32,645 nucleotides of DNA from IMG/VR virus record IMGVR_UViG_3300009158_000017, positions 1-32,645 of that record; one strand, given 5' to 3'. Position numbers and translations under genes: made by a program. The notes below the pieces were generated by a model that saw nothing but the letters and a program-made list of their open reading frames with translations, had not been told where the DNA came from and ran no database searches. The DNA is from a virus. This document shows, piece by piece, positions 6,515-24,584 of the stretch (position 1 is the first letter of the stretch; each line of letters begins with the position of its first letter).

Positions 6515-8994
6515 GCGATCGCATCATACTCATCCGCATCCAAGGCTTGGGCTCTTTGCTCTCTAATGACCAAATGGTCTTCACCTCACGGGGCACCCTT
6601 CCCTACCTGCCCGCCTTTGCCACCTTGGCGGGAGTGGTCTCCAATCTTGGGGATCAATTCAGTTCGGAGATCGGCTTCTTTGAGAGCATGGGGAGCGACC
6701 CCTCCACCAACTTCTCGGTGATCTCCACGGCGGAGACCCGCTCCGCGCTGCTAGGGCGGCGCAAGGTGGCCGTGCAGGATGTGAACGGTGCCCCCGTGGT
6801 GACCACCACCTATGTGCCCCCGCTCTTTGTCGGGATGACCATCGGAGTGAGTGACACCTCCTCCATGTTTGAGGGCCAACGCATCCGCATTGGCACCATA
6901 GCTTGGGAGGTGACCGCGGTGGTGGGTGCTGCCACCATCCGCGCCCGCCGCATTTGGGGCAGCCCCAACACTCCGATCCCAATGATTCTTGCGGGGCAAG
7001 AGGCGGTGGGCATGGTGGTCTATGACCTCTTTTTATCCACCGGGGGCGTGGAGGGTCTCCCGCTGGTGGTCTCTACGGCGGAGGTCACGGCCACCAGCCG
7101 ATCGGAGGAGGAAGTGATCTTTCGCGGGCAGATCACCAAGGTTGGGGTGGAGACCTCACGCGGGGCATCCAATCAGATCACCGTGCAATGCGGCAGCCTC
7201 ATGGGCTACCTCCGCAACGCCCCCTTCCGCCCTCCGATTAGCAATGATTCCACTCTTCTAGCCTCCCCAACTAGCTTTGATCCGTTGCTTCTTGGCGTGG
7301 CGGCGGGCATTGGAGGATTGGTCACCAAGACCAACACCGGGGTCTATGGCGTGCCAACATGGGCAACGGAAGGCGCGCCCGTGGATCCAGATGATGCCTA
7401 CAAGACCTCAATGAGGGCGTGGCAGGTGCGGGATGGGGGGCGGGGGTGTGTTATCCCTTACAGCACTGACCCATGGTCTAATGGACTCCAAGTAGATGGG
7501 CAAACCGCCACAATGGATTTTGCCACGGGTGGCCTTGGTTGGCTCATAGTCTTTGATTCAAGTTACTACACCCCCAACGGTAGCAGCCCTCTCACTATGA
7601 GCATGGGCGTCATTGCTAATGGATTTAGTGAAAGCACTCCCGGGGGTTTTCTGTTCAATGTGACCTCGGGGAGTGAGAGCGCGTTTGTGTGCAAAACTAG
7701 CACACCCGATTACATAATGTTATTAGATCTGCTATTTGGCACGGTTGACGATTATTTTGGCACTTATGGATGGCGAGGGGCCACCGAGGCCGCTTGGTTG
7801 CCCTATGCTGAGGATGAGGCATCCACCGATGTGGTGGATCTTGCCTCCCTTGAGGCGTTGCTCCAAGGCCGTGAGGATGTATTCCCCAACACCACTGATG
7901 GCACCCTAGAGGTTCCACTTTTCCGCGTGCTCCCCTATGATGCGGGCAACGCCAAGACCGTGGGGGATGTCCTTGGGCTCATCCTCAAGCGGCTTGGCGG
8001 CTTCATGGTCTATGACCGGGGCAAGCTCCGCTTTGGCTCATGGGCAGTGAATAACCCGATCCCCACGGTGGTGGACGATGAGGCCTTGGCGGAGCCCGCG
8101 ATCTCCTTGGACTTTGACCGCAACGCTTGCCTCCAAACGGTGGAGGTGGAGTGCGGGGTCTACCGGGTGAGCAATGATTCGGGATCGGATGCCCGGAGCA
8201 CCATCAAGCGGCCCGTGAGCAACCTTGACCTTGGCGCGGTGGGCATTGGCAAGACCACCCAAATGGGCAGTTTCACCGCTTCGCCCGAGGGCGCTGAAAC
8301 GGTCAACAACTTCATCCTTGGCAGTTCATGGTTTGCCAATGCCAACCAAGCGATCGTGCGATACTCCCAACCCGCTGCCAAGGTGGTGGTCACCTACCGG
8401 GATGCGGTGAGCGATCTGGTGGTGGGTGAGACCGTGGCCTTCTCCACGGCCTACCTCCCAAGCGCCACGGGTGAGATGGGGGTGACGCTGGCCACGGGGA
8501 TCGTGCTCAAGGCGGCCCGCTCATGGAAGACCCCCTCCACTGAGTATTCCCTTCTCCTCTTTGGCTATGTGGGGGCCAGCGCCTCCAAGGTGCCCCTCAT
8601 TGGAGCCTCGGCCCGTTGCACGGGGGTGGTCACGGGCAACGATGTGGAGGTGGAGCCCGTTTGGTTCACCCGCGGCTCTTCGGCCACGGGCGGGGCTCCC
8701 ACCTCCGATGTGGCGGCCTTTGGCCAGACCGCGATTTTGGCGGGCACTGATTCAGTGGCCGTGGTGCTCCTTGATGCCAATGGCACCGAGGTGGGCGGCG
8801 GTGCTGACTTGGCCACGCCCATTGTGGCAACCAATGAGCTCCGCTTCCCCGGAGCGCCTTTCCTTGGCACCACCATCCTCCCGGGCTATGTGATCACCTT
8901 GGCCAACTTCCCCCAAGGGTGGGATGCCTTGCAAGCGGCCTCCGATGGCACGGTGTCTGGTGATGCGGCCTTGGCCTTCCCGTGGGTGACCTAA
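6511..8994 (+). CDS. Tail hub / tail-tip protein with a GC-poor internal module
   Basis: An 827-residue protein from the ATG at 6511, which overlaps the previous stop as ATGA; an upstream ATG at 6475 lies inside the preceding gene and is less likely. Length, place and a beta-rich N-terminal half with ring-like segments (around residues 60-240) suggest a tail hub or baseplate-type tip protein. The segment around residues 445-560, with LGLILKRLGGFMVYDRGKLR, resembles hub domains that follow an insertion. DNA at about 7400-7780 (residues about 296-425) is clearly poorer in GC than its surroundings; the encoded stretch is rich in Ser, Thr, Tyr and Gly and may be an acquired receptor-binding module. 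The exact family is not established. Confidence 0.5.
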   Translation: MSDRIILIRIQGLGSLLSNDQMVFTSRGTLPYLPAFATLAGVVSNLGDQFSSEIGFFESMGSDPSTNFSVISTAETRSALLGRRKVAVQDVNGAPVVTTTYVPPLFVGMTIGVSDTSSMFEGQRIRIGTIAWEVTAVVGAATIRARRIWGSPNTPIPMILAGQEAVGMVVYDLFLSTGGVEGLPLVVSTAEVTATSRSEEEVIFRGQITKVGVETSRGASNQITVQCGSLMGYLRNAPFRPPISNDSTLLASPTSFDPLLLGVAAGIGGLVTKTNTGVYGVPTWATEGAPVDPDDAYKTSMRAWQVRDGGRGCVIPYSTDPWSNGLQVDGQTATMDFATGGLGWLIVFDSSYYTPNGSSPLTMSMGVIANGFSESTPGGFLFNVTSGSESAFVCKTSTPDYIMLLDLLFGTVDDYFGTYGWRGATEAAWLPYAEDEASTDVVDLASLEALLQGREDVFPNTTDGTLEVPLFRVLPYDAGNAKTVGDVLGLILKRLGGFMVYDRGKLRFGSWAVNNPIPTVVDDEALAEPAISLDFDRNACLQTVEVECGVYRVSNDSGSDARSTIKRPVSNLDLGAVGIGKTTQMGSFTASPEGAETVNNFILGSSWFANANQAIVRYSQPAAKVVVTYRDAVSDLVVGETVAFSTAYLPSATGEMGVTLATGIVLKAARSWKTPSTEYSLLLFGYVGASASKVPLIGASARCTGVVTGNDVEVEPVWFTRGSSATGGAPTSDVAAFGQTAILAGTDSVAVVLLDANGTEVGGGADLATPIVATNELRFPGAPFLGTTILPGYVITLANFPQGWDALQAASDGTVSGDAALAFPWVT

Positions 8995-10385
8995 TGGCAT
9001 GGAGCAAGCTAGACGAGGATAGGGCCGCGGCGGATGAGCCTTGGAGCGCCTTCTTGCTCAAGGGGCTCACTGACAATGTGAACGCCTACGCGGCTGAGCT
9101 GGCCCCGGGCTTTGCCGCCGCATGGAGCTACCAGCATCCGCCCAAGTGGGCCTCCCTGCTATCCTTTGCGGGCACCACCGTGGTCTTCAATTGCGGGCGC
9201 AAAGCTACGGCTTGCACCTTTGCCCTCAACTTTGACCATCACCCCACTCTCACGGGGTATCTCATGATCTCCCACCCCGCCACGGGAGCATCGGTGGTGG
9301 AGGAGATCACCGGGGGCACGGCGGTGGTCTCCATGACCCTAGCCCTACCCACCCCGCAAAGCGGCCCCCAAGAGTTTCAAGTGCTATACAAGAGCTCAAT
9401 GGCGGAAGAGAGCCTTGGAGACTTCGATTGCTTCACGGCCATTGGCAACCAAGTGGCGGTGCGCAATGGCACCCTCAATGTGGCGGCCAACGCGGGGCGG
9501 CAATTTTGGGCCTTGGTGCTCACCAGCTCCAATGTGGATGATGGGCAGCCGATCGCTCCGGGTGGCTTCCATCAATACCAGATCGGGCGGGTCAACCCCA
9601 CCACCACGGCGGGCGGCGGCAATCATGCGGATGGCTACCTCATCACTTGGCCCGATGTGGAGACCAACCCCCCGATCCTCCGCTCCACCTCTACCTTTGT
9701 GCAACAAGCCCCCAACTATGTGCAAGGGGATATCTTTGAGCTCTCTTGGATCTCGCTTCTTGGCGTGGGCTTCAAGGTGACCGCCAACGCGGCCTCCAAG
9801 GTGCCCATGGTCTATGCCCACGACCTAGCCCAATCGGTGGGGGGCATCCCTCGCTCCCAACGGCTCTTTGCGGGCAACCAACTCATTCAAGTGGCGGCCT
9901 CGGCCTCCAAGGATGAGGGTTTCTTGGGGTGCATAGTGGAGCCAGATGCGCCGCTCTTGAAGTTCTACGCATCGGATGAGAATGGCACGGCCAACCTCAC
10001 CCTCCGCTTCCGCGCCTTGGTCTACCAACCCACGTTTACCCCTCCCACTTGCACCATCTCAGTGGTGGAGGTCTTGCCCGGCCCCAACTTCAATCCTCTT
10101 TTGAGCTTTGATCTTGGCATCCTTGCGATCCCCTTGATGCGGCCTCGCAACTCATTTGAGCAAAGGGGGTTTTGCACGCTGGCCATCAATGGGGTCAACC
10201 TTGGCGCGGATGAGTGGGGCATGGCCGATGCAAGCTTTGGCATGGATCTCATGAGCCCGCCAATCATTGAGCAAACCCTCCGTTTTCCCGTGCAAAGGGT
10301 GGGAGCCACAAGTGCGATCTATGCCATCCAAGTGGACTTCACCTCGGCGGTCTATGTGGCCTCCTTCTACCTTGGCGGAGGTTAG
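8994..10385 (+). CDS. Minor tail protein, unknown family
   Basis: A 463-residue protein starting at the ATG of a TAATG overlap with the hub gene; an in-frame ATG at 8982 lies upstream. It is rich in beta-forming residues and Asn/Thr, with no signal peptide or membrane segment. It lies in the tail-tip block downstream of the hub, so it is probably a structural tip or fibre component that contacts the host. No collagen-like repeat, pectate-lyase repeat or peptidase motif was visible. Its stop is two bases before the next start. Confidence 0.5.
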   Translation: MAWSKLDEDRAAADEPWSAFLLKGLTDNVNAYAAELAPGFAAAWSYQHPPKWASLLSFAGTTVVFNCGRKATACTFALNFDHHPTLTGYLMISHPATGASVVEEITGGTAVVSMTLALPTPQSGPQEFQVLYKSSMAEESLGDFDCFTAIGNQVAVRNGTLNVAANAGRQFWALVLTSSNVDDGQPIAPGGFHQYQIGRVNPTTTAGGGNHADGYLITWPDVETNPPILRSTSTFVQQAPNYVQGDIFELSWISLLGVGFKVTANAASKVPMVYAHDLAQSVGGIPRSQRLFAGNQLIQVAASASKDEGFLGCIVEPDAPLLKFYASDENGTANLTLRFRALVYQPTFTPPTCTISVVEVLPGPNFNPLLSFDLGILAIPLMRPRNSFEQRGFCTLAINGVNLGADEWGMADASFGMDLMSPPIIEQTLRFPVQRVGATSAIYAIQVDFTSAVYVASFYLGGG

Positions 10386-16784: not shown

Positions 16785-17161
16785 GGCGCACCTCCCGCTT
16801 CACGCTTCACGCGGGGCCGCCGCCTAGCAGCGTTGGCCGCCAACCTTGCGGCGCTTGGGTAGTAATAGACCCCCGCCTTGACCCGTGGCCATGCCTCAAT
16901 GGCCGCTTGGAGGGCCACCGCTGCCCGGATGGCATCAAGATCCACGGTGGGAGCCTCACCAGCCTCCAATGAGCCGCGGCGGAGGCCTAGCAGCCCTTCC
17001 CACCACTCATGCAAGAAGGCGCTCTTGAGCGTGCTTCGTACCCGCACCGCCAAGGTTTGACGGCTCACCCCAAGCCCGCGGGAGAGGTGGGCTTGCGTGC
17101 CATAGATCTCCGCCACCCGTGCCCGGATGATGCCCGGAGCCTTATCATAGGTTACGCCCAT
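16781..17161 (-). CDS. Helix-turn-helix protein
   Basis: A 126-residue protein with a likely helix-turn-helix at residues about 20-42 (YGTQAHLSRGLGVSRQTLAV), the recognition helix being SRQTLAVRVR. A basic C-terminus (ARRRPRVKREAGGAP) may add DNA contacts. It could be a transcription regulator or a DNA-binding accessory for replication. Its start lies inside the last codons of recT, so it is coupled to recombination functions. It is one of two candidates in the genome for a factor that binds the palindromic early operators; no evidence links them directly. Confidence 0.65.
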   Translation of the reverse strand: MGVTYDKAPGIIRARVAEIYGTQAHLSRGLGVSRQTLAVRVRSTLKSAFLHEWWEGLLGLRRGSLEAGEAPTVDLDAIRAAVALQAAIEAWPRVKAGVYYYPSAARLAANAARRRPRVKREAGGAP

Positions 17162-18012
17162 GGAAACTCTCCCGCGCTCTCATCCTCTAAGGCCGCATCC
17201 ATGCCATCACCGCGGGCATCCACCACGGGGGTGGCCTCATCCTCATTGGGCACCACGGCGGGCGGCGGCGGGGGCACCATGCGGGCACCACCAACGGCCA
17301 CGGGCACCGCCTCTACCCTCACCCGCTCGGGCTGGTAGAGAGGAGCCTCCGCCTTATCGGCCAGCTCCAAGGCATCGGCCATGGAGACCGAGCGGGGCAG
17401 ATACTTGGCAGCGCGGCGCAACACGGTCTTGCGTGCCATCTCCGCCCAATCGGTGGCCCATGGGCCGCTCTTGCCCGCCCGTGCCCGGTTGCGGATGGCA
17501 TCCACGTCCTCCTTGGCCATCCACTCGAAGACGTGCTCTCCGCTGGTGAGCACCGCGTGGCAATAGACCCCAAGGATTGGATCGCCTCCCTTGCGGCGGA
17601 GGTTGGGGTGGTGGCGGAAGGGCGGGGTGCTCTCCAAGGTGACCTCAAAGAGATCCGAATCATAGACCACGCGGGCTGAGATAGCAGCGATCTCCCCGGA
17701 GCGGCGGATGAGCTGCAAAAGGCCTTGGTAGCCCACAATGAGGGTGCACTCGGTGCCATGGGGCACAAGGTAGCAAGAGCCCAACACATGGGGCTCAAGG
17801 CCGAGCTGGCTTGCCATCATGATGGCGGCCATCACGCTAGGCGGGGAGCACTTGGAGAGGCCGGGATTGGTGCGGAAGGCCGTGAGGGCAAGGCGCACCA
17901 TGCGATCGGGCGTGAGGTGGGCGGGCAGGGCCGCCCGCATTTGCTCCTTGGTGGAGGCGGAGAGGAGCCACTCGGCTACAGGGTGATCTTGGCGGGCTAG
18001 TTGGGTGCTCAT
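17152..18012 (-). CDS. recT: RecT-family single-strand annealing protein
   Basis: A 286-residue protein that binds single-stranded DNA and anneals complementary strands, working with a 5'-3' exonuclease. The RecT core is plain: RMVRLALTAFRTNPGLSKCS, then MMASQLGLEPHVLGSCYLVP, a strand with CTLIVGYQGLLQLIRRSG, and the C-terminal WATDWAEMARKTVLRRAAKY. A Pro/Glu-rich C-terminal tail follows, possibly for SSB contact. The ATG at 18010-18012 follows GAGAGAGACCCGC; upstream in-frame ATGs would lack a good ribosome site. It is encoded just after YqaJ, the standard pair. A TGCA-loop hairpin lies in the 78-base gap upstream. Confidence 0.95.
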   Translation of the reverse strand: MSTQLARQDHPVAEWLLSASTKEQMRAALPAHLTPDRMVRLALTAFRTNPGLSKCSPPSVMAAIMMASQLGLEPHVLGSCYLVPHGTECTLIVGYQGLLQLIRRSGEIAAISARVVYDSDLFEVTLESTPPFRHHPNLRRKGGDPILGVYCHAVLTSGEHVFEWMAKEDVDAIRNRARAGKSGPWATDWAEMARKTVLRRAAKYLPRSVSMADALELADKAEAPLYQPERVRVEAVPVAVGGARMVPPPPPAVVPNEDEATPVVDARGDGMDAALEDESAGEFPWA

Positions 18013-18063
18013 GCGGGTCTCTCTCTGGTGGTGGCCCATGGTGGGCCGTGGGGAAGGGGGCAA

Positions 18064-18082
18064 GGCGGGGGTTGCACCCGCC
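18064..18082 (-). promoter_or_regulatory. TGCA-loop hairpin upstream of recT
   Basis: In the mRNA sense GGCGGG pairs with CCCGCC around the loop TGCAACC, between the YqaJ stop and the recT ribosome site. It is one of five leader hairpins in the leftward arm that carry TGCA in the loop. Function is unknown; translational control or RNA processing between exonuclease and annealase is an inference. Confidence 0.55.
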
Positions 18083-18090
18083 CCTTGGGG

Positions 18091-19137
18091 CTACTCCCCT
18101 TTGCCCTTGCGCGGTGCGGTCACGCGGCAAGACGGGCTCACGGTGGTCACCTTGCGGAAGGCCGCCGCGATCTCCGGGTGGGCAGCCTCAAGCCCCTTGG
18201 CATCAAGGCCCACCCGCTCCGATGCGGCGGAGAAGGCGCTCTTCACGCCCGAGGGCGCGGCCAGCTTGGCGGCCACCTTGTGCGCCTCAAGGATCACCCG
18301 CTTGGCCTCATCTTGCTCCGCCTCCAAGGCCTTGATCTCCGCTCCGAGGGCCACATAGCGATCCATGGCGGCGGCCACCTCGGGCTCCGCTTCCGCTGGC
18401 CCTTCCGCCGCGGGGTGGATGGTGCGGGCGATATCTTCCAGCTCATCCGCATCCGAGGCATCCGGGAGGCGGCCTTGGGGGTCTTGCACCCATGCCATCA
18501 CGCTCTTGGCCACGGTGGTCACAATCTCCGCCGCATCTCGGTTGGCCTCAATGGGGATGAGGTGGAATTGGTAGACCGTCCAAACCGCAAGCCATCCAAG
18601 GGGGCACCCGGTCACGGCCAGCTGAGCTTGCACTTGCCACCAATAGGCAAGGCGGAGGTCACCAGCGGGCACGGCGGAGAAGTCACCATCGGCCACCGCA
18701 TCCCAATCCGAGCGGGAGCGGTCAAGCTTGGCCTCCACGGTGGCCAACACGCGGGAGCTATCCACCTGGTAGACCAAGCCATCGGGCGTGGCGGAGGCTG
18801 CCCCATCGGAGAAGGCCCGCTCATTGCCTCTGAGCTCACACCCGGGGGCAAGGTCAATGTGGCGGAGGGCAATCTTGAGGATCACCTCCTCCGCATCTCG
18901 GCCCGCGGCCATGGCTTCATTGCCCGCGGGCGGAGCCACCAGCGCCAAGAGGTCACGCTTGGAGAGGATGAGGCCAAGGAGGCCACCGTAGGGGCTCACG
19001 CCGATGGCGCGGGCCACCTCGGATGCGCCAAGGGTGGTGCCACGGGCGCGGTGCCACTCCGGGGAATCCTTGGGGAAGGCGGGCATGGCCACCGCCGAAA
19101 CATTGGGGAGGATGAGGTCAAACATTGGAGTAGCCAT
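18091..19137 (-). CDS. YqaJ-family recombination exonuclease
   Basis: A 348-residue 5'-3' exonuclease of the lambda-exonuclease/YqaJ branch of PD-(D/E)XK enzymes; it should resect double-strand ends to feed RecT. Visible motifs are PEWHRARGTTLGASEVARAI (residues 26-45), GRDAEEVI (Gly79 to Glu83), ATPDG (Asp119), VEAKL (Glu135, Lys137) and YWWQVQAQLAVTG. The C-terminal third is an added Ala/Glu-rich helical region (about residues 235-300) ending in a basic tail. The start overlaps the upstream gene by 20 bases. It is followed by recT, together forming a two-component recombinase. Confidence 0.93.
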   Translation of the reverse strand: MATPMFDLILPNVSAVAMPAFPKDSPEWHRARGTTLGASEVARAIGVSPYGGLLGLILSKRDLLALVAPPAGNEAMAAGRDAEEVILKIALRHIDLAPGCELRGNERAFSDGAASATPDGLVYQVDSSRVLATVEAKLDRSRSDWDAVADGDFSAVPAGDLRLAYWWQVQAQLAVTGCPLGWLAVWTVYQFHLIPIEANRDAAEIVTTVAKSVMAWVQDPQGRLPDASDADELEDIARTIHPAAEGPAEAEPEVAAAMDRYVALGAEIKALEAEQDEAKRVILEAHKVAAKLAAPSGVKSAFSAASERVGLDAKGLEAAHPEIAAAFRKVTTVSPSCRVTAPRKGKGE

Positions 19138-19534
19138 CCGCGATCAAAGTGAGGGTGGTGGCGGCCTCTTGGGTGTAGACCATGAGCTTGGCCAGCACGG
19201 TGGTGAGAGGCTCCGAGGTGGCCAGCGGTTGCCAATCCACGATCGCGCTGGTGGTCATGGTGCTCATCACGGGGAGCACGCTGGTGGTGGGCAGCCCCGC
19301 CCAACCCTTCTTGGTGGGCTCCACGGCGCGGGAGAGGTGGAGGTGGAGAGCGCCCTTGGTGGTGGAGCTTGTGCTCACATTGAGGCGGTAGACCACCGAG
19401 GCTCCGGGCACGGGGATGGTGGTGCCAAAGGCCGCATCTCCAATAGAGCAAAGCGTGGGAGCCCACTCGTGATCGGTGGTGGCAAAGGCCTCATGGAGAA
19501 GAGGCAAGAGGATGGCGAGGGTGACATGATCCAT
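19118..19534 (-). CDS. Unknown protein upstream of YqaJ
   Basis: A 138-residue protein from the ATG at 19532-19534, which follows GGAAGACCCGCC; a longer ORF upstream runs through a hairpin. The composition is rich in Thr, Ala and Val with alternating strands (for example SVVYRLNVSTSST, GALHLHLSRAV), suggesting a compact beta domain. It overlaps YqaJ by 20 bases. A single-strand binding or exonuclease-partner role would suit the position, but no OB-fold motif can be asserted. Confidence 0.55.
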   Translation of the reverse strand: MDHVTLAILLPLLHEAFATTDHEWAPTLCSIGDAAFGTTIPVPGASVVYRLNVSTSSTTKGALHLHLSRAVEPTKKGWAGLPTTSVLPVMSTMTTSAIVDWQPLATSEPLTTVLAKLMVYTQEAATTLTLIADGYSNV

Positions 19535-19566
19535 GGCGGGTCTTCCTTTGCCCTTGCGGGCGGTTT

Positions 19567-19617
19567 GCGGGGGTGCATCCCCGCGGGTGAGTGCTCTTGG
19601 GTGGTCTTGCGCCACCC
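19567..19617 (-). promoter_or_regulatory. Two adjacent hairpins in leader of the YqaJ operon
   Basis: GCGGGG (19567-19572) pairs with CCCCGC (19579-19584); in mRNA the loop is ATGCAC. Its core GGGGATGCACCCCC is identical to the hairpin at 19889-19902. Just upstream in the transcript GGGTGG pairs with CCACCC (19599-19617, loop CGCAAGA). Both lie in the 110-base gap after the 75-residue gene. No U-run follows either, so full termination is unlikely. They probably tune expression between the small gene and the recombination genes. Confidence 0.55.
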
Positions 19618-19644
19618 GGAGGGCTTGGCCCGAGAGCGGGGCGA

Positions 19645-19872
19645 CTAGGCCGCGGCGGCCATCTTGGTGAGCTCAGCTTTGCGCTCCTTGGTGAGCGTGC
19701 GGCCAAAGAAGCCAATCCCAAACTTGGCGCATCCCGCGTTGCGGTGGAGTGCAAAGTGGGCGCTAGTGTCACCTTGCTCTAGGGCAACGGCGGCGGCGCG
19801 GGTGTTGGTAGCAAATGAGATACGCTCCCGGAGATAGGCGGCTTCGGTCTTGGTCAAGGTCTCGGTGCTCAT
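19645..19872 (-). CDS. Small early protein, unknown
   Basis: A 75-residue protein, first in the operon driven by promoter P2. It looks like two helices joined by a short polar segment (TKTEAAYLRERISFATNTRA, then GCAKFGIGFFGRTLTKERKA). The ATG at 19870-19872 follows GGAGACCCGCC. It has no membrane segment. Place and size fit an early host-takeover, regulatory or anti-defence protein, but that is a guess from context. Confidence 0.6.
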   Translation of the reverse strand: MSTETLTKTEAAYLRERISFATNTRAAAVALEQGDTSAHFALHRNAGCAKFGIGFFGRTLTKERKAELTKMAAAA

Positions 19873-19888
19873 GGCGGGTCTCCAATGT

Positions 19889-19902
19889 GGGGGTGCATCC
19901 CC
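19889..19902 (-). promoter_or_regulatory. TGCA-loop hairpin in P2 leader
   Basis: mRNA reads GGGGATGCACCCCC: a four-base G:C stem with loop ATGCAC, about 8 bases after the predicted P2 start point and 16 bases before the start codon. The stem is short, so the conserved sequence may act as a binding site rather than by folding. The bases before it (CTCACACCA) are also shared with the P1 leader. Confidence 0.55.
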
Positions 19903-19916
19903 GTGGTGTGAGAGAG

Positions 19917-19945
19917 CTACTAGAGGGCGGTTTACACGGTGTCAA
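19917..19945 (-). promoter_or_regulatory. Early promoter P2 with palindromic operator
   Basis: On the minus strand TTGACA (19945-19940) is followed by 17 bases and TAGTAG (19922-19917), a sigma70-type promoter. The -35 lies in GTTGACACCGTGTAAAC, a 17-base palindrome with one mismatched pair, so a dimeric regulator could compete with RNA polymerase. The element is nearly the same as P1 at 21193-21221. It should drive the 75-residue gene, the unknown gene, YqaJ, recT and perhaps all later leftward genes. Confidence 0.8.
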
Positions 19946-19967
19946 CACTTACTTGCGCCCTTTTGCA

Positions 19968-20144
19968 TTATTTTTCGATCTTCCGCATGGCCCACGCTGC
20001 CAAGGCTTGAGCCTCGGAGAAGTTGGCACCCGCGCCACGGGCCGCGTCAACGGAAGCGGAATAGGAGCGGAGATCGCTGCCCGTCCGATCGTGGGTGATC
20101 TGAGCTGCCCGGATGGCACGGGCCGCCGCCAAGGTGCTGGCCAT
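19968..20144 (-). CDS. 58-residue early protein, unknown
   Basis: A short ORF (MASTLAAARAIRAAQI at its start, AWAMRKIEK at its end), helical and Ala-rich with a basic C-terminus. The ATG at 20142-20144 follows GGGAGGGC and lies three bases downstream of the previous stop, which supports translation. It fills what would otherwise be a 180-base gap before promoter P2. Function is unknown. Confidence 0.6.
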   Translation of the reverse strand: MASTLAAARAIRAAQITHDRTGSDLRSYSASVDAARGAGANFSEAQALAAWAMRKIEK

Positions 20145-20147
20145 AGC

Positions 20148-20630
20148 TCAGCCCTCCCAAGAGGTGGTGCGATTCATGCGAAGGCAATCCCGCACCTTGG
20201 TGGAGAGCCCCGCGGCCTCCGCCCCATCCCAAAGGGCACGGTTGCGGGCGGAGAAGGTGGGATGGTCAACACGGTCTTGGTAGAGGTCTTCCACATTGGC
20301 CATCACCTCCAAGGCAATGGCAACGGCGGGGGATGAGGGGGCCAGCAGGGGCGCGGCAATGGCCGAAGCAATCCCCGCTTGGTTGGTGACCTCACGGGCG
20401 CAAGCAAAGGCATTGGCCACATGGCGGGCGCGGGAGAGCTTGGTGGTGCTCATCTCGGCGCAAGAGGCCTCAAGGCGGGCAAGCGTTGCATTGGCCATAG
20501 CAGCCTCCGCCGCATTGATGAGCTCCGGGGGGCTGGTGGGGCTCAAGGCATCAAAGATCGCTTGCGCGGTGGTGGTGGCAAGCTCCGCAATCTCGCGGGC
20601 GGTTTCAGGGGTCATGGGGGTCAACAGCAT
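20148..20630 (-). CDS. Unknown 160-residue helical early protein
   Basis: An Ala-rich, mostly helical protein (ETAREIAELATTTAQAIF, EAAMANATLARLEASCAEMS) with a more polar C-terminus (DLYQDRVDHPTFSARN). The ATG at 20628-20630 follows AGGAGACCCGCC, the start context shared by the early genes. It is the largest member of the small-protein cluster under P1. I cannot assign a family; its helices could form a small oligomeric bundle. Confidence 0.6.
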   Translation of the reverse strand: MLLTPMTPETAREIAELATTTAQAIFDALSPTSPPELINAAEAAMANATLARLEASCAEMSTTKLSRARHVANAFACAREVTNQAGIASAIAAPLLAPSSPAVAIALEVMANVEDLYQDRVDHPTFSARNRALWDGAEAAGLSTKVRDCLRMNRTTSWEG

Positions 20631-20656
20631 GGCGGGTCTCCTTGGAGGGGGTTGGG

Positions 20657-20860
20657 TTAGGTGGGAAGCGTGGCGGCAAAGCGGCGGCGGAGGTCAAGGA
20701 GGCGGAGCGCCTCAAGCTCAAGGAAGAGGTGCCAAGCCCGATCCTCATGGTCGGTAGCAGCGGAGGCCGCGGCGGAGTGGTGCTCCACCGCTCTTTCAAG
20801 GCGGGCAATGGTCTTGGCCAGCAGCTCGGCGGTGGTCTCGGCGGTGGTCTCGGTGGTCAT
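20657..20860 (-). CDS. 67-residue early protein, unknown
   Basis: Starts MTTETTAETTAELLAKT; residues 1-12 are a Thr/Glu repeat, and the rest forms amphipathic helices with basic residues at the end (LLDLRRRFAATLPT). The ATG at 20858-20860 follows TTGGAGCCCGCC. The stop TAA is 26 bases before the next start. Possibly a small DNA- or protein-binding early factor. Confidence 0.58.
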   Translation of the reverse strand: MTTETTAETTAELLAKTIARLERAVEHHSAAASAATDHEDRAWHLFLELEALRLLDLRRRFAATLPT

Positions 20861-20888
20861 GGCGGGCTCCAATGGGTGGGGGGTGGGG

Positions 20889-21143
20889 TTAGGCGGCAAC
20901 GGCGAAGGTGGCCTTGAAAGCGGCCTCACACTCGGCGGCGCGATCCTCAAAGGCAAAGGCGTTGCCCCGTGCCCATGCAATGTAGGCCGTGCGAACCTCC
21001 ACCCGGATGTTGGTGGCCGCATCCTTGGCGCTCTGGTGGAAGCGGTGGGCCTCCGAGCGGGCGCGGCGCATCTCATCAAAGAGCTGGCCAGCGGTGAGGC
21101 CTTCAATGGTGCCAAAGGTCTTGGTGGGGGGGAAGGTTGTCAT
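20889..21143 (-). CDS. 84-residue early protein, first in P1 operon
   Basis: A helical protein (GLTAGQLFDEMRRARSEAHR, then EVRTAYIAWARGNAFAFEDR) with no membrane segment. The ATG at 21141-21143 follows GAGGAGCCCGCC. It is the first gene downstream of promoter P1 and should be among the earliest made. Function is unknown. Confidence 0.6.
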   Translation of the reverse strand: MTTFPPTKTFGTIEGLTAGQLFDEMRRARSEAHRFHQSAKDAATNIRVEVRTAYIAWARGNAFAFEDRAAECEAAFKATFAVAA

Positions 21144-21161
21144 GGCGGGCTCCTCGGTGGC

Positions 21162-21178
21162 GGGCAGTGCAATTGCCC
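21162..21178 (-). promoter_or_regulatory. TGCA-loop hairpin in P1 leader
   Basis: mRNA reads GGGCAATTGCACTGCCC: stem GGGCA/TGCCC with loop ATTGCAC. It begins about 8 bases after the predicted P1 start point and ends 19 bases before the start codon, in nearly the same place as the P2 hairpin. Confidence 0.6.
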
Positions 21179-21192
21179 TTGGTGTGAGGATG

Positions 21193-21221
21193 TTACTAGG
21201 TGGCGATTGACGCGGTGTCAA
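21193..21221 (-). promoter_or_regulatory. Early promoter P1 with palindromic operator
   Basis: Minus strand TTGACA (21221-21216), 17 bases, then TAGTAA (21198-21193). The -35 lies in TTGACACCGCGTCAA, a 15-base palindrome with one mismatched pair. The next bases, up to CTCACACCA and the leader hairpin, parallel promoter P2. P1 lies just after the primase stop and should drive the cluster of four small genes. Confidence 0.8.
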
Positions 21222-21229
21222 CTGCTACC

Positions 21230-23974
21230 CTACGGAATTTCACTATCTCCCCGATCGTGCTCTTCTCCGCACAATTCCGATAGTTGGCGGCTCAAGCGGT
21301 AGCACCACGGGCTCCCGCCTCCGAGATAGATCTTGTGGGTCGATCTTCCCTCGCCCTTCACCAGCTCACCACGATCCAAGAAGGTGGCCACCGTGGCCTT
21401 CACATTGAGCCCGCGGCTCTTGAGGTAGTCGTGGAGAGCATCGGGCACCAAGTAGACCGCCCGCTGGCCGAGCTCCTCCCGCATCCGCCCAATGATGCTC
21501 ATGGAGTTCTCCGGGGCGTTGGCGTGCCATTGCATCCGCGCCCGATTGGAGGCCACCCATGCCACCACGCCCTCAATGGCATGGGCCGCCTTGTCGGCCT
21601 CCGCTCCCTTGGCCAAGATCGCCTCAAGCTCAGCCTTGGAGAAGAGATCGGAGATATCGCTCTGAGCCTTCCACTCAAGCCCAACAGCCTTGCGGAAGAG
21701 CCACCATGCCACCTCCATCTCCGCAAGGTAGAGGGCGATCCGTTGGATGGCTTCCGTGCCACTCATGGCGGGGGGCCGTGCCAAGGCATAGGTGGCCGCC
21801 CGCTTCTCCACCATGGCCCTGAGCTCAGCCCGCTCCTCGGCGCTGGTGGCCAGCACCCAATCCACAAAGGCCCGACCCGCAACCCCATGGTTGACCTCGG
21901 TGCCCTTGGCCGCCGCTTGGAGCGCCTTCTTGGTCTCCGGGCTATCTCCGCCAAAGATCGGCCCCCATACGGTGACACAACGGGCCACCAGCCCGCCCGC
22001 CTCTCGCATCCCTGCTAGTGGGGTCTCTCCCGTGGAGATGAGCACCGATTCATAAGTGGCGCTCTTTTGGGTGCCCGTGATGGTGCCCCGCGCCTTGCCC
22101 CTCCCTTGGGTGATCTCATAGACCCAATTGCCCGCCGCCGTGAGGTCGTCGGCAAGCTGGCTCTCATCCCGGAAGATGGGCAGCCCCCGCATGGCACCCG
22201 CGATCCGCTCCGAGGCGGTGTTGGTATCCTTCCAATTGCCCACGATGCGACCCGTGCCCCAAATGGAGGCCGCAAGCTTAAGGGCCGTGGTCTTGCCCAC
22301 TGAGCTATTGCCCGAGAGGTCTAGAGCGAAGGCGGAGCCCACGGGCGCGAAGATGCGGAGCAACGGGGGCACCACCGCCGCGGCCATGGCATAGGCGGCC
22401 CGTGGATGCGCCTTGAGCACGGGCTCAACAGCTGCCCGCCACCCTTCCACGCTACCGCTGGCCATTACCGCCTTCACGGTGTCACGCTGCTCTCCCTCAA
22501 GGAGCCCCATGCGGAGATCCATGCTGGCCGCCCCTTCCGCAAAGTGCACCCCATCAAAGCCCCGCACAAAGGCGGAGCCATCGGGGAGCCACCCGGTGGA
22601 GCTGGCCAAGGCCACCGTGGGCCACTTGGGCTTGCGCCCCAATCGGGCAGCCTCCGCCTCATCTTGATCCATGAGGGCGATCGCCCCGTCAATGTAGTCA
22701 ACCAAGACCTTGGCGGTGTTGCTACTCACGGGCAGCCCCTTGCGCCGCCAAGCCACCAGCAGCCGCGCTTGGCAAGCCTCCGCCGCGGGCACCTCCTCGC
22801 CCTCGGCCCGTTGGCTACCGTGAGCCAAGGTCACATAGTGGTCACGGGTCTCAAGGCTCACGGCCCGACCTCGCACCCAAATTGCGGGGTAGCATACTGA
22901 CACCCACTCGGTCTTGCCCTTGGTGGTCACCACCTTGCGCAAGAGGTGGCCTCCCTCCTCCCGCCACCCATCGGGCATGGGGTGGAGCATCTCCCGCGGG
23001 CTCACTACCTCCACCGCACTCTCCACCTCTTGCGGGGCCATTGGAGGCTCTACCGCGGGCCGCCCGCACAAGGCCACCCGCACCGCCTCAAGGCCAAGGG
23101 AGGAGTGGAGATCGTTGTAATCGGTGCCACGCTCCGGGTGACCCGCTGGCCACTCGGGCACTAGCAGCCTCGCCCCTACCGCATCCGCCGCGGCCTTGCC
23201 CGCCTCAATGCCAACATTGCGATCGCTCTTCCAATCATCATCACCCGCCACCACCAGCGTGGCCCGCGGTGCCTTCGCCCGTGCCATCTTGGCCACCGCC
23301 ATGAGCTGCCCGCTATCCATGGCGCACAAGACCGTCCACCCCGTGGCCTCCGCAATGGAGAGCCCCGTGGAGTAGCCCTCACAAATGGCGATCGTGCCCG
23401 GGAGCCCCTTGATGGCATGATAGGTGCCCGCCCGCCGCGCCCCCTTCTCATAGGTCTTCACCCATCTCTCACTCTCACGATCCCACCAGATGCGTTGGAG
23501 GTTGACCACCGCACCCGTGCCATCCTTGAGCGGGAGGAGGAGCGTGTTGCCCTTGCGATAGCTGCCCGCCGCCGCCGCCACGCCCTTGGTGGCAAGGTAG
23601 CCAAAGGAGCCCGAGGCCTTGCCCGCCTCCTCCACCACCGCCAACACCCGCACCGCGGCCTCACCAGCCTCCTTTGCCCGGGCAGCCTCACGGGCCTTGC
23701 CCGCCGCCACCGCCGATGCATGGAAGGCTTGCACCTCCGCCGCGCTCATCTCTGAGCTAGCCCCGCGGTGGCTCCACTTGGTTGCCCCCTGACCATCCGC
23801 CCAATTGCCAAACGCCCCGGAGGCCACTCCATCGGAGTGGAGGAGATACCAGCCCGCCTCCTTGCCCTTGCCCTCCACCTCGCAACGGTGAATCTGACCA
23901 TCCGCCACCAGCTCACGGATCACTAGCCCACGCCCGCGGGCCGCCTCTACAAAAGATGCCTCTACCTCTCCCAT
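21230..23974 (-). CDS. TOPRIM primase fused to DUF927-type ATPase/helicase
   Basis: A 914-residue replication protein. Residues 29-75 show the small N-terminal domain of phage TOPRIM primases (HRCEVEGKGKEAGWYLLHSD, then GAFGNW). The TOPRIM domain follows, with ICEGYSTGLSIAEATG (Glu199) and VVAGDDD (Asp245-247), which hold the metal for primer synthesis. From about residue 355 a DUF927-like module leads to the Walker A GNSSVGKTT (555-563) and Walker B LPIFRDESQ (Asp603, Glu604). So priming and unwinding are probably joined in one chain. No CHC2 zinc finger is seen. It is the first leftward gene, next to the candidate origin; SD GGAGG lies five bases from the ATG. No phage DNA polymerase was found, so host polymerase is probably used. 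Confidence 0.88.
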   Translation of the reverse strand: MGEVEASFVEAARGRGLVIRELVADGQIHRCEVEGKGKEAGWYLLHSDGVASGAFGNWADGQGATKWSHRGASSEMSAAEVQAFHASAVAAGKAREAARAKEAGEAAVRVLAVVEEAGKASGSFGYLATKGVAAAAGSYRKGNTLLLPLKDGTGAVVNLQRIWWDRESERWVKTYEKGARRAGTYHAIKGLPGTIAICEGYSTGLSIAEATGWTVLCAMDSGQLMAVAKMARAKAPRATLVVAGDDDWKSDRNVGIEAGKAAADAVGARLLVPEWPAGHPERGTDYNDLHSSLGLEAVRVALCGRPAVEPPMAPQEVESAVEVVSPREMLHPMPDGWREEGGHLLRKVVTTKGKTEWVSVCYPAIWVRGRAVSLETRDHYVTLAHGSQRAEGEEVPAAEACQARLLVAWRRKGLPVSSNTAKVLVDYIDGAIALMDQDEAEAARLGRKPKWPTVALASSTGWLPDGSAFVRGFDGVHFAEGAASMDLRMGLLEGEQRDTVKAVMASGSVEGWRAAVEPVLKAHPRAAYAMAAAVVPPLLRIFAPVGSAFALDLSGNSSVGKTTALKLAASIWGTGRIVGNWKDTNTASERIAGAMRGLPIFRDESQLADDLTAAGNWVYEITQGRGKARGTITGTQKSATYESVLISTGETPLAGMREAGGLVARCVTVWGPIFGGDSPETKKALQAAAKGTEVNHGVAGRAFVDWVLATSAEERAELRAMVEKRAATYALARPPAMSGTEAIQRIALYLAEMEVAWWLFRKAVGLEWKAQSDISDLFSKAELEAILAKGAEADKAAHAIEGVVAWVASNRARMQWHANAPENSMSIIGRMREELGQRAVYLVPDALHDYLKSRGLNVKATVATFLDRGELVKGEGRSTHKIYLGGGSPWCYRLSRQLSELCGEEHDRGDSEIP

Positions 23975-24031
23975 CGAATCCTCCGAGGTTGCAAAAAGAT
24001 CGCTGCCCCGCTATCATGCGGAGCACCGGGT

Positions 24032-24056
24032 GGCCGCTTGGTGCAATCTTGCGGCC
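24032..24056 (-). promoter_or_regulatory. TGCA-loop hairpin in primase leader
   Basis: GGCCGC (24032-24037) pairs with GCGGCC (24051-24056). In mRNA the 13-base loop contains GATTGCACC, close to the ATTGCAC of the P1 leader hairpin. It lies 58 bases upstream of the primase start. Confidence 0.5.
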
Positions 24057-24062
24057 TCCCCT

Positions 24063-24104
24063 ATGATGCCACCTTGGCGGCCCCCCGTCAAGATAGCGCG
24101 TCAA
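24063..24104 (-). promoter_or_regulatory. Possible primase promoter with two TTGACG boxes
   Basis: On the minus strand TTGACG occurs at 24104-24099 and 24091-24086, a 13-base direct repeat. The second, with 17 bases to CATCAT (24068-24063), makes a weak sigma70-type promoter whose start would fall at the leader hairpin, as in P1 and P2. The -10 match is poor, so this call is tentative. Confidence 0.35.
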
Positions 24105-24108
24105 CAGA

Positions 24109-24153
24109 CACCACCTTGAGCGCCTCCCCCCCTCCATGGCGCTCAAGGTGGTG
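24109..24153. repeat. Perfect 16-bp inverted repeat in the divergent hub
   Basis: CACCACCTTGAGCGCC (24109-24124) is exactly complementary to GGCGCTCAAGGTGGTG (24138-24153), with a 13-base C-rich loop. It can form a cruciform in DNA or a strong RNA hairpin. No T-run follows on either strand, so it is not a plain terminator. It lies between the leftward primase and rightward terminase arms, next to the iteron-like boxes, which favours a role in replication initiation or divergent control. Confidence 0.85.
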
Positions 24154-24555
24154 ATCCGTGGGGCAAGACCTCCAAGAAGGCCAAACCTTCCCAACCTTCC
24201 CAAAACCAAAAGCAAAGTGGGAAGAGAGGGAATGTGACCTAGAGCCTTTGATCTTTGGGCATTTTTTGATCCTTCTTCCCACTTTTCCCACTTTTCCCAC
24301 TCATATTGCCTTATGTGCGGGCGCGACCCCCTCCCCCCTCTCACCAGCTCACCCCCTCAAGTGATCCCTATATAGTCCACATGGAGTGGGTAAACTGGGA
24401 AGAAGCCCGTTTTTGGACCCTAACACCATGAAAGTGCTCGAGTTTTTCTCTGTCCAGTGGTTTGGGTCGGTCTGGGAAGATTGGGAAGGTCGCACCGGGC
24501 AGCCCACTCACCCCTCCCCTTGGAGCTGGCCAGCCTTCCCACCCATCCCACCGCC
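24154..24555. repeat. Non-coding hub with ten TTCCCA/TGGGAA boxes; candidate origin or packaging site
   Basis: TTCCCA occurs at 24188, 24197, 24276, 24285, 24294 and 24536, and TGGGAA at 24218, 24396, 24473 and 24482. Several are spaced exactly 9 bases apart; 24276-24302 is a threefold TTCCCACTT-type array. An A/T-rich stretch with ATTTTTTGAT (24261-24270) lies beside them; the line 24241-24300 is about 45% GC by count. Short ORFs cross the region on both strands but have no good ribosome sites and merely translate the repeats. Iterons plus an A/T-rich stretch beside a primase gene suggest an origin; closeness to the small terminase allows a packaging site instead. Confidence 0.65.
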
Positions 24556-24584
24556 TTGACCTCTCACCACGCTTGCACCATAGT
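24556..24584 (+). promoter_or_regulatory. Candidate late promoter before terminase
   Basis: TTGACC (24556-24561), 17 bases, then CATAGT (24579-24584), four of six matches to the -10 consensus. It lies about 114 bases upstream of the small terminase ATG and is the best rightward promoter seen in the hub. No palindrome overlaps it, unlike the early promoters. Confidence 0.5.

Follow-up and report, generated by a model that had tools for sequence, protein, structure and literature searches.

Two RNA elements, designated H5 and H4b, have been identified in the leftward early region of an uncultured phage (IMG/VR virus record IMGVR_UViG_3300009158_000017; 32,645 bases, referred to in its full length as the window). 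On the evidence of their sequences, both are tRNA-like three-way junctions within early polycistronic mRNA. H5 is formed in part by the 3' end of a gene for a RecE-like exonuclease, and counterparts occur at every recE end examined; whatever its mechanism, the element is a conserved, covariation-supported RNA for which Rfam 15 holds no matching family. Literature searches (subscription papers lay outside them) returned no description of such an element, which is apparently a conserved, previously undescribed tRNA-like RNA in a group of phages. Loci of other phages are denoted below by L numbers; features of the window are on the minus strand unless indicated otherwise.

The junction consists of an outer helix (P1), a small hairpin (P2) and a T-arm (P3) with a T-loop of 7 nt, followed by a further hairpin (P4); the 3' strand of P3 continues into the 3' strand of P1. 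These helices are distinct from the leader hairpins P1, P2 and P3, named by transcript start, that are described below. P2 is typically of the form GGGC-nAA-GCCC, and its loop often contains the stop codon of the upstream gene; the T-loop reads UGCAANC, or UUCAA, UUCGA or GUCAA in relatives. The start of each element lies at the upstream stop codon or a little past it; in elements that start shortly before this codon, the codon falls in the P2 loop. On the 3' side come P4 and then a ribosome site. In H5 (18058-18106) the helices are P1 GGGCAA/UUGCCC, P2 GGGG(AGUAG)CCCC and P3 GGCGGG(UGCAACC)CCCGCC, with the UAG stop codon (18093-18091) of the RecE-like gene (18091-19137) in the P2 loop; P4 (GGCCCA-CCA-UGGGCC, 18033-18047) lies between the element and the ribosome site of the downstream gene for a RecT-like annealing protein (17152-18012). 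In H4b (19593-19637) they are P1 GCUCU/AGAGC (GCUCA/UGAGC in L008), P2 GGGC-CAA-GCCC and P3 GGGUGG-CGCAAGA-CCACCC, the loop being UGCAAGA or UGCAAUG in relatives. Behind H4b, hairpin H4 (GCGGGG-AUGCAC-CCCCGC, 19567-19584), preceded by CUCACCC, takes the position of P4, and another hairpin (GCCC-GCAA-GGGC, 19550-19561) stands directly before the ribosome site of the gene at 19534-19118. The last bases of the P2 loop are mostly AA in elements with G at the second T-loop position and AG in those with U there (L043, L046, L048); this correlation, which involves few independent changes and has H5 of the window as an exception, could reflect a contact like that of the D-loop with the T-loop.

The predicted structure of the element is well supported. 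In 23 sequences the pairing of P3 reaches 99.3%, and three of its six pairs change on both sides; taken together, P2 and P3 have a covariation of 0.390, as against 0.166 in shuffled sequences and at most 0.151 in slid registers. Helices P1 and P4 also outperform shuffles (Fisher p 1.5e-7 for the former, 1.1e-7 for the latter; related members were counted as independent). P1 and P3 vary singly in length (mostly 4-7 and 5-8 pairs), but in 23 of the 26 elements the stack that they form together stops 12 or 13 nt away from the T-loop, compared with 24% in shuffles.

Relatives could be compared because a terminase search yielded 34 loci (68-97% identity). In a simple T-loop search, each of the 19 distinct recE loci examined (RecE identity 39-100%) had a T-loop hairpin 13-19 nt downstream of its recE stop codon, against a background of 0.0086 per such interval; distant relatives carry hairpins of the H5 type with different stems and nearly fixed loops. 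A covariance model (R1) was built from 17 members, among them H4b of the window, which it matches at E 2.9e-15. Loci outside the seed were matched at the recE 3' end in L030 (E 6.9e-11), L048 (3.2e-5), L046 (4e-4), L043 (0.001) and L045. L052 was missed by R1; its hairpin carries the canonical UUCGA loop (the terminase match on the L052 contig, G019:C1:9175-10407, is reported with one in-frame TAG). Two loci without TerL or RecE match, L093 and L100, hold a complete element between two genes on the same strand; both were retrieved by a pattern with conserved bases, to which P1, P4 and stem complementarity did not belong. The element was not found at E 0.01 in the distant RecT- or RecE-based loci L010, L011 and L021. 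Four further loci from a genome-wide pattern were rejected as chance-like, since no clean three-way junction was seen in their folds (R1 up to 24.9 bits for one). Read-through of the stop codon from recE into recT was likewise discarded: the frame is common to both genes in the window, but a stop codon was met by eye in L028, L038 and L041.

At the recE position of most loci the T-loop follows the rule U54-N-C56-R57-A58 (UGCAA, UGCGA, UUCAA, UUCGA), the exceptions being GUCAA in L043-type phages and CGCAA in H4b of the window; the G-C pairs closing the 7-nt loop are invariant. The stack has the approximately 12 bp of an acceptor plus T stack by which tRNA-like structures are judged geometrically. 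In tRNA this stack measures 12 bp (seven plus five), and its length, not its sequence, is what RNase P measures (PMC4919913). The likeness of the predicted element to tRNA is geometric only.

From the fold, its placement relative to stop codons and ribosome sites and its tRNA-like size, all read from the sequence, we infer a mechanism in which early mRNA would be punctuated by tRNA-like structures that divide or protect the long message; this reading is plausible, if still short of probable. The fold would be recognised by its shape, either by host nucleases of tRNA maturation or as a block to exonucleases. With a cut just 3' of P1, the upstream message would end in a folded, tRNA-like 3' end and retain its stop codon, and the downstream message would begin with a short leader like CUCACCC and a protective hairpin; the promoters of leader hairpins P2 and P3 would give transcripts with a like 5' end (CACACCA and a hairpin). 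At recE, RNase Z-like cutting on the 3' side would fit better than RNase P-like cutting on the 5' side, with which the recE stop codon would be lost. RNase P as main processor was rejected: there is no RCCA, a 5' cut would fall within recE, and the lack of a 3' CCA after the stack itself speaks against this enzyme. With more reserve, the elements may be viewed as anticodon-less tRNA mimics, a phage-specific RNA class with a T-loop and a fixed stack of 12-13 nt that would stand at gene junctions in several lineages and divide polycistronic mRNA through host tRNA-processing enzymes (or by blocking exonucleases). Mitochondria punctuate their messages with real tRNAs; if the proposal holds, the early messages of this phage group would be punctuated by tRNA mimics, a novel means of giving the genes of one operon lifetimes and 5' ends of their own.

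Several findings weigh against punctuation by a tRNA-like RNA. The stack is not followed by a 3' CCA, the 5' strand of P1 at recE lies inside the gene, and H4b of the window carries C at T-loop position 54. No match to the tRNA family (RF00005) was obtained in short stretches at E up to 5-10, and ARAGORN predicted 0 genes. P2 is the least supported arm, being 76% paired, without double change and at odds with some members; the stack ends at 11 in L046 and L048 and at 10 in L036b (one P1 mismatch). The promoters concerned are only predicted, that of leader hairpin P1 by scan and those of P2 and P3 by eye.

Among the alternatives, a cis-regulatory RNA for the downstream gene (translation coupling or riboswitch-like), in which a ribosome terminating at the P2 stop codon would open the junction and alter access to the next ribosome site, is unlikely, although it would account for the stop codon in the P2 loop of most recE copies and for the constant position of the element and P4 upstream of a start codon; structured leaders without Rfam match are, moreover, often regulatory. 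The ribosome site, however, lies tens of nucleotides past the element, the stop codon falls outside the junction in H4b, L093 and L100, and conservation concerns the T-loop and the length of the stack, a large conserved ligand pocket being absent; the folds showed no alternative pairing with the ribosome site, for which no systematic search was made. Nut- or boxB-like sites, to which a phage protein for RNA binding or antitermination would bind as in the original prediction, are improbable. Hairpins do lie near the main leftward promoter, and the terminator-like second hairpin and U-tract of the P1 leader are conserved in distant relatives, but there the TGCA loop gives way to CGACAA, H5 and H4b belong to larger junctions, and no candidate protein, annotation or family match was found among the early open reading frames. 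DNA operators or stoperator-like repressor sites with a TTGCAC core in inverted repeats are hardly credible: TTGCAC/GTGCAA occurs in either orientation inside inverted repeats at several gaps, yet also throughout coding DNA, stems vary freely with pairing retained, loop sizes range from 5 to 13, another hairpin separates helix P1 from P3, and the positions follow stop and start codons.

It is very doubtful that the element is a self-cleaving ribozyme akin to twister-sister, with hairpin GGUGCAANCC as the conserved T-loop of stem-loop 4 (SL4) and a cut in the mRNA beside P1. Twister-sister (RF02681), which shares with the element the hairpin loop GGUGCAAGCC and a multi-way junction, was the only Rfam family at E up to 5 (L093, 17.1 bits, E 0.39; L100, 18.2 bits, E 0.2) and one of four weak matches in L036 (13.4 bits, E 7.1), and GCAAG and CUCA stand beside P1 in some copies (L038b, L041b). 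The SL4 hairpin of the ribozyme, whose loop is G-U-G-C-A-A-G-U-C with a pair between U30 and A34, itself folds like a T-loop and reads GUGCAAGUC (PMC5660989), which is why twister-sister is the best Rfam family in L093 and L100, two phages outside the clade. Compared with the SL4 loop GUGCAAGYC, many copies have UGCAANC and others UUCRA or GUCAA; G31 of SL4 becomes U in relatives (UUCAA, UUCGA). The scores (13.4 to 18.2 bits) are about half of the gathering cut-off (34 bits) or less, and the catalytic internal loop (G5, C6, A8, G9 with G59, C60, U61, A63) is absent from most copies, the element being kept, among them H5 of the window (no CUCA), L029, L035, L043, L093 and L100. Membership in the family was rejected on this cut-off and on the lack of conservation of the catalytic loop (GCAAG/GCUCAU, with the C-A cleavage step between P1 and P2); the outer helix of that loop is not conserved either. 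Self-cleavage of some copies, blocking of exonucleases and ribosome-driven regulation at the P2 stop codon are all possible; punctuation by a tRNA-like RNA is the reading preferred here.

The element came to light through five hairpins, each just upstream of a leftward ribosome site, in which the original prediction had recognised a common TGCA loop, suggesting selection on the RNA. All five were confirmed, with TGCA in each loop: leader hairpins P1, P2 and P3, hairpin H4, and the T-arm (P3) of H5 (18064-18082). The 1,063 nt of leftward early gaps contain 5 TGCA-loop hairpins where 0.106 would be expected; none of 1000 shuffles yields as many, and among the 256 tetramers TGCA ranks first. The minus strand as a whole is not enriched (6 observed, 6.2 expected), so that the signal is one of position. 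Close relatives retain every hairpin that their contigs cover, and selection on RNA structure is borne out by the strong covariation. As one class the five did not hold together: they are real and located in gaps, but belong to at least two unrelated kinds, with loops (A/U)UGCAC in leader hairpins P1, P2 and P3 and H4, and UGCAANC in H5. A sixth hairpin, of the H5 kind (H4b, 19617-19599), had been overlooked. The proposed binding of one loop motif by one phage RNA-binding or antitermination protein was not upheld: H5 serves as T-arm in a tRNA-like three-way junction, H4 comes after such a junction, hairpins P2 and P3 stand at predicted transcript starts and P1 opens the leader of the primase gene. 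In more distant relatives TGCA is lost from both classes (UUCAA, UUCGA and GUCAA in the H5 type, CGACAA in the primase-leader hairpin), on which ground a single motif common to all hairpins was rejected; a single protein reading the TGCA loop is unlikely, and the common TGCA looks like a clade-level coincidence of separate hairpin classes. Kissing of UUGCAC with GUGCAA loops was also rejected, the loops being complementary in the window and their complementarity lost in relatives.

Leader hairpins P2, P3 and hairpin H4 can be grouped as a separate clade-specific class of leader hairpin with the loop AUGCAC. P3 (GGGG-AUGCA-CCCC, 19889-19902; clade-specific class A) lies downstream of a promoter-like TTGACA-N17-TAGTAG (19917-19945; conserved in relatives), and P2 (GGGCA-AUUGCAC-UGCCC, 21162-21178; class A) downstream of TTGACA-N17-TAGTAA (21193-21221), both promoters being below the scan cut-off; the stem of P2 shows a compensatory change in relatives (GGGCA/UGCCC to GGGCG/CGCCC). 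CACACCA precedes both hairpins, as CUCACCC does at the same place before H4, and the DNA string CACNNCGGGGATGCACCCC is confined to this clade in IMG/VR. P1 (GGCCGC-AAGAUUGCACCAA-GCGGCC, 24032-24056; kept in L025, with CGACAA loops in its place in L028/L036-type phages) follows the predicted main leftward promoter (TTGACG-N17-CATCAT, 24063-24091), whose position is conserved in relatives. A second, terminator-like hairpin (24004-24025) is followed by GCGATCTTTTTGCAACC. This plan of the primase leader (promoter, hairpin, second hairpin, UUUUUGCAA(C/G)CC, ribosome site; 24004-24056 in the window) is kept in distant relatives and, with differing sequences, across the clade (primase leaders of L028, L031, L036, L038 and L041); the primase leader may be an early attenuator, and the P1 leader may act in attenuation or antitermination. 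Just upstream of the main leftward promoter lies a perfect 16-bp inverted repeat (24109-24153), of which the stem is changed and still paired in the close relative L006; other inverted repeats occupy the same place in L028, L036 and L043.

The window has a direct end repeat of 123 bases, with terminase genes rightward from 24635 and the early block leftward from 23974 (primase/helicase, small proteins, RecE-like exonuclease, RecT-like protein, RusA-like resolvase, DNA methyltransferase). In a collection of cultured phages the early region had no DNA match, and the TerL and primase proteins matched at <60% identity only. A promoter-like TTGACC-N17-CATAGT (24556-24584, plus strand), with TTGCACC in its spacer, is placed for the rightward terminase block. 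TTCCCA/TGGGAA blocks are repeated in the divergent region (24170-24480), as are GGGAACA repeats in L043 (about 8900-9060); these are possibly replication-origin iterons. Over the whole window the palindromes ACGT, GTAC, TTAA and CCGG occur at only 0.07-0.3 of the expected frequency, a strong deficit that suggests restriction pressure; the DNA methyltransferase of the phage is encoded at 15332-14085.

Among known systems, the early RNase III sites of phage T7 are long RNase III hairpins in intercistronic gaps; they share with the element the structured RNA in early gaps that could set mRNA ends, and differ in that the element is a T-loop three-way junction. The P1 leader, with hairpins where the main early transcript begins, recalls the HK022 put and lambda nut leader RNAs by positional analogy only, no sequence or protein match having been found. 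In cluster K mycobacteriophages, the 17-bp inverted repeats termed ESAS are tied to a 13-bp sequence (SAS, GGGATAGGAGCCC) at gene starts (PMC3203893). Repeated inverted-repeat features upstream of some gene starts, mostly in one orientation, are common to both systems, but ESAS are conserved in sequence, whereas the elements described here conserve structure and leave the stem sequence free. Resembling such start-associated sequences, a different sequence, GGAGACCCGCCATG, stands with no more than one mismatch at three leftward starts (19532-19545, 19870-19883, 20628-20641) and more loosely at other starts (15 matches with at most 3 mismatches, compared with 9.3 expected). From tRNA the element differs by the lack of an anticodon arm and of CCA, by a P2 loop of only 3-5 nt, by its location inside mRNAs and, in most members, by a G as base 55 of the T-loop. 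It shares with the acceptor/T-arm stack of tRNA and with viral tRNA-like structures the 7-nt T-loop U-N-C-R-A-N-N closed by G-C pairs, the stack of P1 on P3 over 12-13 nt, in which the 3' strand of P3 enters that of P1, and an arm of 4 bp (P2) in the position of the D-arm.

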